DNA from: Humisphaera borealis | GTDB taxonomy: Bacteria > Planctomycetota > Phycisphaerae > Tepidisphaerales > Tepidisphaeraceae | Assembly: GCF_015169395.1 (NCBI RefSeq) | Contig: NZ_CP063458.1 | Location: forward strand, 3,534,001 to 3,598,000 | DNA: 64,000 nucleotides | Direction of reading: 5' to 3' | Shown: piece after piece, positions 19,024 to 54,337 of the stretch | Layout: each line of letters starts with the position of its first letter | Numbering within the stretch: the stretch's first letter is position 1 | The notes under the pieces: generated by a model | Seen by the model: the letters and a program-made list of their open reading frames with translations, nothing else | The model's database searches: none | What the model was told of the DNA's origin: nothing | Program-made: the position numbers and the translations under genes

Positions 19024-20136
19024 TCAAGTGCATCCGCGTCCAGCACGAGCCATCGCGGCAGCCAGAAGGATACCCGCGCCGTCGCCTTCGAACCGGGCTT
19101 CGACGTCCAGCCGCCAGATCGGGATTTTCGCGTCGGCAACCCCGTCGATCGCTGCCAGTTTCACCCAGTCCTTCTCCGTCGTCACCAGCACTTCGGCCCC
19201 GGCCGATTCTCCACTGGCCTGCAGCATTCGCACGTCATCCGCCGTGTAAGCGTGGTGGTCGGGAAACCGATGCTCGCCCGCGTACTTCCCGGCGAGCGAG
19301 CGGATCTGCCGCTCGAACCCGCCGGGCGAACCCAACCCGCTGAAACACATCGCCGACTTCTCCCGCAGCGCCGATAGCGGCACATCGGCCGGCTGGTCGC
19401 TCGGCGTCCCCGCCGACCGCAGCCCGGTCGGCTCGTGCCGTTCGAAGACGACCTGCACGCCGGCGTTGTGCTGGCGGATTTCGGCGATCGTCGTCGCGCG
19501 GCTTTCGGGCGTCGCCGCGTCGGCGCTGGTCAGGATCACGATTCCGGCCCGCTTCAGGCCGGTAATCGGCTCGCGCAGCAGCCCGCGCGGCAGGACATGG
19601 CCATAACCGAACGGCTCAGGCGCGTGCAGCAGCACGATGTCCAGATCGCGATGCAGCCGCCGGTGCTGAAATCCGTCGTCGAGCAGGAATAGGTCGATCG
19701 CAGGCTCGCGTTCGAGTGCCCGCAGGCCGGCGGCATGGCGGTCGGGGTCGCATTCGATGACGACCCGGCCGGCGGTCGTCGTCCCGCCACCCAGCATCGC
19801 CAGCAACATCCGCTGTTCGTCCCCGAGCGTTCCCGGCTCGGCCTTGTAGCCGCGGGCAAGGATACCGACGTTCAGGCCGCGATCGCGCAACGCCCCGGCG
19901 AGCCAGCGAATGACCGGCGTCTTGCCCGTGCCACCGGTAGTCAGATTGCCGACAGAAATCACCGGTTTCGGCAACTTGCGAGCGCGCGATGCGTCGCGAT
20001 CGAACCGTCGGTTCCGGCGGTTGACCTCAAACCGGTACAGCGGCTCGATGCACGCCAAAGCCGAGCGGCCAAGCGAAGGGAAAAGTCCCTTCGCCTGGCC
20101 GCTCATCAGGCGTTGAATGGAGTGCTCAAAGCTCAT
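19024..20136 (-). CDS. lpxK: Tetraacyldisaccharide 4'-kinase LpxK
   Basis: A 370-residue inner-membrane-associated kinase that adds the 4'-phosphate to the lipid A precursor. Markers are the N-terminal amphipathic/hydrophobic stretch, the Walker A SVGNLTTGGTGKTPV (GGTGKT at 68-73), ILARGYK, and LDDGFQHRRLHRDLDIVLL with the catalytic acidic pair. TTEKDWVKL occurs near the C-terminus. The length is slightly above the family norm. It implies lipopolysaccharide synthesis. Other lpx genes are not in the window. Confidence 0.95.
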   Translation of the reverse strand: MSFEHSIQRLMSGQAKGLFPSLGRSALACIEPLYRFEVNRRNRRFDRDASRARKLPKPVISVGNLTTGGTGKTPVIRWLAGALRDRGLNVGILARGYKAEPGTLGDEQRMLLAMLGGGTTTAGRVVIECDPDRHAAGLRALEREPAIDLFLLDDGFQHRRLHRDLDIVLLHAPEPFGYGHVLPRGLLREPITGLKRAGIVILTSADAATPESRATTIAEIRQHNAGVQVVFERHEPTGLRSAGTPSDQPADVPLSALREKSAMCFSGLGSPGGFERQIRSLAGKYAGEHRFPDHHAYTADDVRMLQASGESAGAEVLVTTEKDWVKLAAIDGVADAKIPIWRLDVEARFEGDGAGILLAAAMARAGRGCT

Positions 20137-37902: not shown

Positions 37903-37989
37903 GGTGTAGCGGCCGTGTTGTGGTGCGGGCTTCAGCCTGCAACCGAATGTGCACGCTGAAGCCCGCACCACAAATGCGCCCCCTACACC
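37903..37989. repeat. Nested inverted repeat between convergent genes
   Basis: A perfect 19-bp inner arm pair, TTGTGGTGCGGGCTTCAGC (37918-37936) with 37955-37973, sits inside an outer pair GGTGTAG/CTACACC (37903-37909, 37983-37989). It lies in the convergent gap between the HEAT-like and carboxypeptidase genes. Confidence 0.8.
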
Positions 37990-39275: not shown

Positions 39276-39331
39276 GGACCGCCGAGCGCTTGCTCGGCAT
39301 GTCGAAGAGCCGAGCAGGCGCTCGGCGGTCC
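39276..39331. repeat. Inverted repeat, GCCGAGCGCTTGCTCGGC family
   Basis: 23-bp arms at 39276-39298 and 39309-39331 match at 22 of 23 positions. The loop ends TCGAAGA and runs into GCCGAGC exactly as in the 23090-23160 element, pointing to one superfamily with different stem cores. Confidence 0.8.
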
Positions 39332-48156: not shown

Positions 48157-48245
48157 GAATGCAAAACGCAAAACAGGCAATTAAAAATGCAAAACGGTGC
48201 GAGTCCGTTTTGCATATTTCATTGCCTGTTTTGCATTTTGCATTC
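48157..48245. repeat. AT-rich inverted repeat, ACGCAAAAC/AAAAATGCAAAAC family (copy 2), convergent gap
   Basis: 41-bp arms at 48157-48197 and 48205-48245 match at 38 of 41 positions, with a 7-nt TGCGAGT loop. It lies between the convergent RND and TPR-like genes. Confidence 0.88.
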
Positions 48246-51330: not shown

Positions 51331-53235
51331 ATGGACTACATCGCCACCCGCTATCGTTCCCACACCTGCGGACAGCTCCGCGCTTCTGACATCGGCCAGA
51401 CCGTGAAACTGGCCGGCTGGGTTCACAATTACCGCGATCACGGCAACCTGGTGCTGATCGACCTGCGCGACCGCGACGGCCTAACCCAAGTCGTGTTCGA
51501 CATCGACGAGTGCGGACCAGCGTTCCACGAGGAGGCACGCAAGCTTCGCAGCGAATGGGTCATCAGCGTCGAAGGGACCGTCGGCGACCGTGGCGTGGAC
51601 GACAAGGGAAAGAGCCGTGAGAACCCCAAGCTCGCAACCGGCAAGGTTGAACTGCGCGTCAAGTCGCTGGCCGTCCTCAGCCAGTCGCCGACGCCGCCGT
51701 TCCTGCCCGACGAGCACGAGACCGTCCACGAAGAACGCCGGCTGCAGTACCGCTTCCTCGACCTTCGCCGGGCGGAGATGCAGGAGACCCTGCGCGTCCG
51801 CTACCGCGTGACAAAGATCATGCGCGATTACCTCGGCGATCTGGGGTTCTGGGAAATCGAAACGCCGTTCCTGACGCGCAGCACACCGGAAGGCGCTCGC
51901 GATTTCATCGTGCCGTCGCGGAACCAGGTCGGCAGCTTCTACGCGCTGCCGCAGTCGCCGCAGCTCTTCAAGCAGTTGTTGATGGTCGGCGGGTGCGACA
52001 AGTACATGCAGATCGTCCGGTGTTTCCGCGACGAAGACCCCCGCGCCGACCGTCAGGCCGAGTTCACCCAGCTCGACGTGGAGATGTCGTTCATCGACCG
52101 CGAAGACATCATCAAGGTGATGGAAGGCTTGGTCCGCAAGATCTGGAAGGACATCCTCGGCAAGGAAGTCCCCAACCCCATCCCGCACATCGACTACGAC
52201 GAGGCGATGACCAAGTACGGCTCCGACCGCCCCGACCTGCGGTACGGCATGCAACTGCATGACATCACCGACCTGGCCCACACCACCGAGTTTGCGGTCT
52301 TCAAGAACGCCCCGATGGTCAAGTGCATCGTCGTGCCCGGCGGCGCGAAGATGACCCGCAAGGAGACCGATGCCCTGGCCGAGTGGAGCAAGGGCTACGG
52401 CGGCAAGGGCGTCGCGGTCACCAAGGTGATCAACCTGCAGCAGGCGGTAACCGACAAGATCATCCCCACCGTCGCCGAGGCCGAGAAGACAGGTGTTTTT
52501 GCCGCCGGTAGCGACTCGCACCTCTACACCGGCGTCGCCAAGTTCGTCGCGTCGATCGCCGAGGAGGTTGTCAGCCGTATTGGCGCCAAGCACGGCGACC
52601 TGCTCTGTTTCGTCGCCGACAAACCGAAGGTGGTCTACAAGGTGCTCGGCGAGCTTCGGCTGAAGATGGCCAAGGACATGAAGATGCCCGCCAGCACCGA
52701 GTTCGCCTGGTGCTGGGTCGTCAACTTCCCGGCGCTGGAATACAGCGAGGAAGACGGCCGCTTCGTCGCGACGCATCACCCGTTCACGGCCCCGCTCGAC
52801 GAGGACGTTGCGAAGATGACGAGCACCGACCGCGCCACGATCGAAGGCATCAAGGCCAAGGCGTATGACCTGGTCGTCAACGGCTCGGAAGTGGGCGGCG
52901 GATCGATCCGTATCCACCGGATGGACGTGCAGCAGGCGCTGTTCTCGCTGCTGGGCATCGACGCCGAGGCCCAGAAAGCAAAGTTCGGCTTCCTGCTCGA
53001 TGCGCTGCAGTTCGGAGCCCCGCCGCACGGCGGTATCGCGCTGGGCCTGGACCGGCTGGTGATGATCCTGCGGAACATCCACAACATCCGCGACGTCATC
53101 GCATTCCCCAAGACCCAGAGCGGCGCAGACCTGATGTGCGGCGCACCGGCGGCGATCGACGACCGGCAGTTGCGCGACGCCCACATCCGCGTCGTACTTC
53201 CGCCGGCAACGGCTCCGGCCACGCCAAAGGCGTAA
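51331..53235 (+). CDS. aspS: Aspartyl-tRNA synthetase, probably non-discriminating (Asp/Asn)
   Basis: A 634-residue class IIb synthetase of the long bacterial type. An OB-fold anticodon domain (1-110) precedes the catalytic core: motif 1 YRFLDLRRAEMQETLRVRYRVTKIM, motif 2 FRDEDPRADRQAEFTQLDVE, an inserted GAD domain, and motif 3 GIALGLDRLVMIL. The anticodon loop has RDHG (His37), the residue linked in other bacteria to relaxed Asp/Asn recognition; discriminating enzymes such as E. coli have Leu there. With gatA in the window this fits indirect Asn-tRNA synthesis. A short Pro/Ala tail ends the protein. Confidence 0.96.
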   Translation: MDYIATRYRSHTCGQLRASDIGQTVKLAGWVHNYRDHGNLVLIDLRDRDGLTQVVFDIDECGPAFHEEARKLRSEWVISVEGTVGDRGVDDKGKSRENPKLATGKVELRVKSLAVLSQSPTPPFLPDEHETVHEERRLQYRFLDLRRAEMQETLRVRYRVTKIMRDYLGDLGFWEIETPFLTRSTPEGARDFIVPSRNQVGSFYALPQSPQLFKQLLMVGGCDKYMQIVRCFRDEDPRADRQAEFTQLDVEMSFIDREDIIKVMEGLVRKIWKDILGKEVPNPIPHIDYDEAMTKYGSDRPDLRYGMQLHDITDLAHTTEFAVFKNAPMVKCIVVPGGAKMTRKETDALAEWSKGYGGKGVAVTKVINLQQAVTDKIIPTVAEAEKTGVFAAGSDSHLYTGVAKFVASIAEEVVSRIGAKHGDLLCFVADKPKVVYKVLGELRLKMAKDMKMPASTEFAWCWVVNFPALEYSEEDGRFVATHHPFTAPLDEDVAKMTSTDRATIEGIKAKAYDLVVNGSEVGGGSIRIHRMDVQQALFSLLGIDAEAQKAKFGFLLDALQFGAPPHGGIALGLDRLVMILRNIHNIRDVIAFPKTQSGADLMCGAPAAIDDRQLRDAHIRVVLPPATAPATPKA

Positions 53236-53246
53236 GTACCGAGGTG

Positions 53247-53283
53247 GACATGGGAGGGATTCAATTACAATCCCTCCCATGTC
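53247..53283 (+). promoter_or_regulatory. Perfect hairpin enclosing the start codon of the second Gfo/Idh/MocA gene
   Basis: GACATGGGAGGGATT (53247-53261) pairs perfectly over 15 bp with AATCCCTCCCATGTC (53269-53283) around a CAATTAC loop. The ATG at 53279-53281 is in the right arm and GGGAGGG, the only good ribosome-site-like tract nearby, is in the left arm. The structure would sequester the start. There is no U-tract after it, so it is not a typical terminator for aspS. Confidence 0.65.
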
Positions 53284-54337
53284 TACCCTGCGCATAGGCG
53301 TCATCGGGGCCGGCGGGATCGCGGCCAAAATGCACTTCCCGGAACTGGCCGACCTCCGCGACCGCGCGAAGGTCACGCTCATTTCCGGTCGCAACGAGAA
53401 ACGCCTGGCGATCATCAAGGATCGCTTTGACATCCCCCGACATACGACCCGCTACGAAGACGTGATCGCCGACGACAGCATCGACGCCGTCATCGTCGCC
53501 ACGCCACACCCGCAGCACGTGAAGTGGGGCATCGCGGCGCTGGAAGCGGGCAAGCACGTTTACATGCAGAAGCCGCTGTCCGGCGAGATGGCCGAGGCCG
53601 ATGCCTTCGTCGCCGCGTGCGACCGACACCCCGATCGCATCGTCTACTGCCTGCCGCACTTCGACGACACGGTGTTGTCGGTTCGGGCGGCGCTCCGCCG
53701 TGGCGATCTGGGCAAGCCGACGGGCATGCGGGCCCGCACCAGCCATGGCGGCCCGGAAGTGTATTACCGCGAAGTCGCCACGTTCTTCGGCGAGCCCGAA
53801 TCGACCGACCTCTGGTTCTTCGACGAGAAAAAGGCCGGCGTGGGCGCGCTGTTCGACATGGGCGTCTACGCGACGAGCTACACGATCGCGATCCTGGGCA
53901 CGATCAAACGCGTGACGGCCGTCACCGCGACGATCGACAAGCCGACCACGCTGGAAGACACCGCCACGCTCATTCTGCAGGCCGAGAATGGCGCCCTGGC
54001 GACGGCCGAGACAAGCTGGTGCGATCCCGGCCGAACCTGGGCGTTCAGCGTTCATGGGAGCAAGGCAAAGGTGACTTTCGGCGCGAACGACCCGGCCAAG
54101 CTCCACACGCCGACGGCCCTGGATCGCGATAACGCCCCGATCGACATCACCGATCTGCCGATGCGGGTGCAGGTCGGCAATTCCCACCGCCACTGGCTCG
54201 ACTGCATCGCAACCGGCGTTCAGCCGCCGGTATCCAACGCCCGGACGGCAAGACACGTCACCGAGGTGTTGCTGGCGGGCCTGAAGTCCGGCAAGGAAGG
54301 CAAGCCGGTGGACGTGCGGTCGACGATGGAGGGGTAG
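53279..54337 (+). CDS. Gfo/Idh/MocA family oxidoreductase (second)
   Basis: A 352-residue NAD(P)-dependent enzyme: LRIGVIGAGGIAAKMHFPEL (Rossmann), GKHVYMQKPLSGEMAEADA (QKP variant of the EKP signature) and KKAGVGALFDMGVYATSYTIAILG for the catalytic region. The start is fixed by the Rossmann strand directly after MST. It is close to aspS (44 bp) but has a start-codon hairpin. The substrate is unknown and differs from the enzyme at 41084-42109, with which similarity is only family-level. Confidence 0.88.
   Translation: MSTLRIGVIGAGGIAAKMHFPELADLRDRAKVTLISGRNEKRLAIIKDRFDIPRHTTRYEDVIADDSIDAVIVATPHPQHVKWGIAALEAGKHVYMQKPLSGEMAEADAFVAACDRHPDRIVYCLPHFDDTVLSVRAALRRGDLGKPTGMRARTSHGGPEVYYREVATFFGEPESTDLWFFDEKKAGVGALFDMGVYATSYTIAILGTIKRVTAVTATIDKPTTLEDTATLILQAENGALATAETSWCDPGRTWAFSVHGSKAKVTFGANDPAKLHTPTALDRDNAPIDITDLPMRVQVGNSHRHWLDCIATGVQPPVSNARTARHVTEVLLAGLKSGKEGKPVDVRSTMEG

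Follow-up and report, generated by a model that had tools for sequence, protein, structure and literature searches.

The hairpin at positions 53243-53287 of the window (the whole stretch of 64,000 nucleotides analysed) is probably the 3'-end stem-loop of an aspS gene, overlapping both the leaderless promoter and the start codon of the next gene, an oxidoreductase of the Gfo/Idh/MocA family, and closing the AUG of the latter only in RNA that reads through from aspS. The hairpin, its position, the genome-wide enrichment of a leaderless -10 element and the opposite predicted pairing of the AUG in the two RNAs are computed results.

Structure of the hairpin and its flanking genes

Fifteen uninterrupted Watson-Crick pairs join 53247-53261 with 53269-53283 around a 7-nt loop, exactly where the sequence-only reading of this DNA had placed a perfect stem, and past a single G-U pair (G53246-U53284) the stem extends to 19 pairs over 53243-53287. 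On the forward strand, the left arm, GGTGGACATGGGAGGGATT (53243-53261), starts 7 nt past the aspS stop codon and includes the tract GGGAGGG at 53252-53258; the loop, as given by sequence and fold, is CAATTAC (53262-53268); and the right arm, AATCCCTCCCATGTCTACC (53269-53287), holds the ATG of the oxidoreductase gene (53279), which the same reading had rightly put there and which is paired with 53249-53251. The fold z-score of the hairpin is -7.0, with none of 200 dinucleotide shuffles folding equally well, and the 19-bp stem is the single dominant one within a fold of -73.4 kcal/mol. As a chance control, 400 kb of first-order Markov sequence yielded no stem of at least 13 pairs. A simple hexamer method predicted 1,153 gene starts in 1.66 Mb of the genome; of these, the start at 53279 carries the longest stem lying over any start, with 19 pairs, followed by 15 and then 12, and its fold from -45 to +20 ranks as the second most stable of the predicted gene starts sampled. 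The hairpin is thereby confirmed as real and far beyond chance.

The upstream gene (51331-53235, forward strand, stop codon 53233-53235) encodes an aspS-type class II aminoacyl-tRNA synthetase with the Pfam domains tRNA-synt_2, tRNA_anti-codon and GAD, and an 84% identical copy is present in a same-genus genome. The downstream gene (53279-54337), codirectional after a gap of 43 bp, was correctly recognised from the letters as a Gfo/Idh/MocA oxidoreductase, as is borne out by Pfam PF01408, PF22725 and PF02894. Because its N-terminus, MSTLRIGVIGAGGIAAKMHFPE, aligns with those of the orthologs L064-L068, the same-genus counterpart (L064) reading MPQKLRIGIIGAGGIAAKMHFPE, and because no alternative start codon fits, the ATG at 53279 is, judged by this alignment, the correct start.

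Long hairpins at the 3' ends of genes

Stems of at least 13 pairs number 93 in 1.66 Mb, 86 of them intergenic, and the 85 assignable ones are distributed over codirectional (48), convergent (35) and divergent regions (2), although divergent regions make up 31% of the intergenic bases. Their median distance past a stop codon is 34 nt, with 65 of 83 at 60 nt or less. The long hairpins of this genome are thus overwhelmingly 3'-end hairpins, and the one at 53243-53287, a GC-rich stem beginning 7 nt after a stop codon, as in intrinsic terminators, is by its position the 3'-end hairpin of aspS. The stem is followed by CTGCGC in place of a U-tract, the scan for terminator patterns called none at the hairpin, and only two T residues fall within the last four stem bases and the next six, a count of two or fewer being the low tail of the genome's 3' hairpins (13 of 68). 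Since the hairpin is so U-poor, true intrinsic termination is uncertain. Among the 3' long hairpins in 1.66 Mb, it alone covers a genuine start codon; a second candidate, at genome positions 5655916-5655954, was rejected, its start being mis-called and the real gene beginning downstream with a Shine-Dalgarno motif of its own.

Other long palindromes were also observed in the window. A second long hairpin at 20063-20104, with 19-nt arms that are 95% complementary and a 4-nt loop, lies within the N-terminal codons of a reverse-strand gene (20136-19024) that looks by eye like lpxK; it starts right at an internal ATG that is in frame (20106-20104), some 63 nt beyond the stop of a transporter-like gene lying upstream in the same direction. 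Possibly the start of the lpxK-like gene is set wrongly; another possibility is that its coding start is overlapped by a 3' hairpin. A long palindrome at 37918-37973 (TTGTGGTGCGGGCTTCAGCCTGCA...) is dispersed, at least three further copies, nearly identical and all of them intergenic, being present elsewhere in the sampled genome. Another dispersed family has a copy at 39276-39331 (GGACCGCCGAGCGCTTGCTCGGC...) and is found again at genome positions 3749038 and 5802517. An intergenic inverted repeat at 48157-48245 has 41-nt arms, 93% complementary, a 7-nt loop and repeated GCAAAACG units.

A probable leaderless promoter inside the hairpin

A probable -10 element, the hexamer TACAAT at 53266-53271 (forward strand), is shared between the loop and the right arm; exactly 7 nt separate its end from the ATG. 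In the 7.19-Mb genome, TACAAT-N7-ATG was counted 26 times and the reversed pattern, used as a control, twice, and for TACAAT-N0-30-ATG the counts are 209 and 80; the spacing of 7 alone thus contributes an eighth of all matches with spacings of 0 to 30. In 125 of the 1,153 genes (10.8%) a TAnnnT ends 6-10 nt ahead of the start, compared with 2.2-3.1% in farther windows, and a Shine-Dalgarno motif accompanies 0.8% of these TAnnnT-type genes versus 28%, a contrast partly forced by the two motifs occupying the same positions. By these motif counts, a leaderless gene class is clearly present in the genome. The oxidoreductase gene has its features, namely TAnnnT at a gap of 7 and no Shine-Dalgarno motif 5-9 nt before the ATG, and its transcription is likely to start on the A of the ATG or no more than about 1-2 nt from it. 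The alternative that the sequence-only reading had offered, a leaderless transcript with its beginning inside the stem, is therefore well supported by the position of TACAAT and the strong genomic enrichment of its spacing.

A possible -35 hexamer, TGGACA (53245-53250, forward strand, five of six positions), can be read from the sequence at a suboptimal 15-bp spacer from the -10 element; the -35-like hexamers of other leaderless-type genes in the genome stand at 15-18 bp, mostly 16-17. Because the spacer of this best -35 is only 15 bp, a sigma-70 scan with spacings of 16-18 called no promoter at the locus, and the promoter of the oxidoreductase may be weak.

The placement of the -10 element inside the dyad, whose centre (53265) is some 14 bp ahead of the predicted transcription start, as is typical for a repressor, also suggests a DNA operator, with the 45-bp palindrome binding a repressor that covers the leaderless promoter. 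However, usual operator half-sites are shorter than these nearly perfect 19-bp arms, the element has no second copy in the genome, the best match beyond itself being of 14 nt, and the long palindromes of this genome sit 3' of genes and not in divergent regulatory regions; the operator is accordingly improbable. For the right-arm sequence TACAATCCCTCCCATG, no other genomic match with fewer than two mismatches was found, and the operator of a regulon was discarded on this ground; a dispersed repeat or mobile hairpin was likewise discarded, since the element occurs only once in the genome.

In RNA starting at 53279, the A and U of the AUG have predicted probabilities of being unpaired of 0.98 and 0.96, and the G is predicted to pair weakly with the downstream coding sequence, whereas in read-through RNA from aspS the predicted value for the AUG is about 0.001. 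A transcript beginning at or beside the ATG lacks the left arm, so the hairpin cannot form in it; with the AUG predicted to be open in this RNA and closed in that of aspS, the oxidoreductase's own mRNA would escape any action of the hairpin.

Ribosome-site spacing and translational control

Shine-Dalgarno-like motifs (GGAG, GAGG, AGGA) peak 5-9 nt before the gene starts of this genome. The tract GGGAGGG does lie in the left arm, where the sequence-only reading had located it as the ribosome site of the ATG, but it ends 20 nt upstream of that codon and is therefore not its ribosome site; the sequence immediately preceding the ATG is CCCTCCC. A translational switch in a leader, by which a protein, a small RNA or temperature would free a sealed ribosome site and AUG, as that reading had proposed, accounts for the AUG being fully paired wherever the RNA carries both arms. 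Beyond the G-tract's faulty spacing, which leaves the ATG without a suitably placed Shine-Dalgarno motif, it is opposed by the stem itself, which runs for 19 bp with neither internal loops nor alternative pairing, features that thermosensors and riboswitches use. The Rfam search returned no family above its gathering score and the fold no alternative or metastable pairing; the matches under that score (plant microRNA precursors and Mcr7) were dismissed as generic matches to long hairpins. The stem is, moreover, missing from the same-genus ortholog, and a stem not conserved in relatives was an outcome that the reading itself had named as refuting it. Such a switch is very unlikely.

It is still harder to credit translational coupling, in which ribosomes finishing aspS would open the stem and start again at the AUG beyond it. 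The base of the stem, 7 nt past the stop codon, is within reach of a terminating ribosome, but the partners of the AUG (53249-53251) are 14-16 nt past the stop, at or beyond the leading edge of the ribosome, and the AUG stands 44 nt from the aspS stop, with no Shine-Dalgarno motif.

Conservation and copies of the element

In the same-genus ortholog, which is 76% identical, TTGACA-N17-CACAAG-N6-ATG stands directly ahead of the start and no long stem was found there; a stem was likewise not found at the more distant orthologs L065-L068, few relatives in all being compared. Promoter-like spacing thus appears to be kept in the same-genus ortholog and the hairpin not, the comparison within the genus comprising one other genome, with a different gene order. 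What follows aspS in that genome is not the hairpin but a long inverted repeat of GTCATCCTGAGCGCAGCGAAGGACC type (L092, 2350-2580). A scan independent of gene calls over 2.46 Mb for hairpins of at least 12 pairs with TAnnnT-N6-10-start in the right arm found, besides 53243-53287, one GU-rich case with a short GTG open reading frame, and no comparable second case.

The absence of the stem from the same-genus ortholog and its uniqueness in the 2.46 Mb scanned would also be expected of a neutral palindrome, made by a recent template switch that copied the promoter and start region in reverse upstream and left a functionless hairpin; as promoter and coding sequence both constrain the right arm, it is the left one that could be the copy. 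This origin is unlikely, though somewhat easier to entertain than an operator, as the hairpin is placed just past a stop codon like the other long hairpins of the genome, which track genes rather than pointing to a random intergenic origin.

Proposed arrangement and its meaning

In the arrangement that we favour, the stem-loop would act at the 3' end of the aspS transcript as a terminator or RNA-end stabiliser, and RNA polymerase directed by TACAAT would start the oxidoreductase mRNA at about 53279, with no left arm and with the AUG open. Both arms would be present only in RNA reading through from aspS, where the hairpin would end or cap the transcript and, in RNA continuing past it, hold the AUG closed, so that synthesis of the oxidoreductase would depend on its own promoter and would not follow incidentally from transcription of aspS. 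What we infer here is the activity of the promoter, the 3'-end function and the insulation of translation. More speculatively, a single 45-bp element may serve at once as the aspS 3'-end hairpin, a leaderless core promoter and a start-codon lock in read-through RNA, that is, a compact insulator at the levels of RNA end and translation that targets the start codon and not a Shine-Dalgarno site.

If this is true, leaderless genes of a planctomycete can be packed directly behind another gene and stay untranslated from read-through RNA. It would also be a warning that a start codon within a hairpin need not mean a riboswitch, and that one has to know first where transcription starts. The presence of a leaderless-type -10 element at about a tenth of the sampled starts is useful for annotating gene starts in this group.

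Comparison with known systems

In the B. subtilis sigG gene, a hairpin of at least 20 pairs arises only when transcription of the upstream operon reads through and is proposed to block translation of that RNA, and RNA from the gene's own promoter cannot form it (PMC5942855). At the level of sequence the same two features are seen here, with the AUG predicted to be paired in upstream RNA and the own promoter's RNA unable to fold the hairpin, which would likewise form only on read-through. Unlike sigG, which has a leader and a ribosome-binding site, the oxidoreductase gene apparently starts without a leader, and what is predicted to be closed is the AUG; the hairpin also sits where the 3'-end hairpin of an upstream gene usually does.

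The I-TevI, I-TevII, I-TevIII and segB genes of phage T4 and mobE of phage Aeh1 likewise give own-promoter transcripts too short for the inhibitory fold that upstream transcripts adopt (PMC2988022), and share with the present locus a promoter so placed that its own RNA lacks the folding sequence and the upstream RNA has it. The phage cases, however, control the time of expression through access to a ribosome site, whereas the oxidoreductase is a chromosomal metabolic gene with no known timing and apparently no leader.

Intrinsic terminators or 3'-end stem-loops without U-tracts lie within 80 nt of a stop codon, and a section heading of PMC8355165 states that the U-tract is not strictly required; the aspS hairpin resembles them in lying less than 80 nt past its stop, and differs in overlapping the promoter and start codon of the next gene and in being U-poor even for this genome. 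The leaderless (TA-led) genes of bacteria carry TANNNT about 10-12 bp upstream of the start and no Shine-Dalgarno motif (PMC3160421); the oxidoreductase gene resembles them in both respects and differs in having its signal within an inverted repeat that is nearly perfect.
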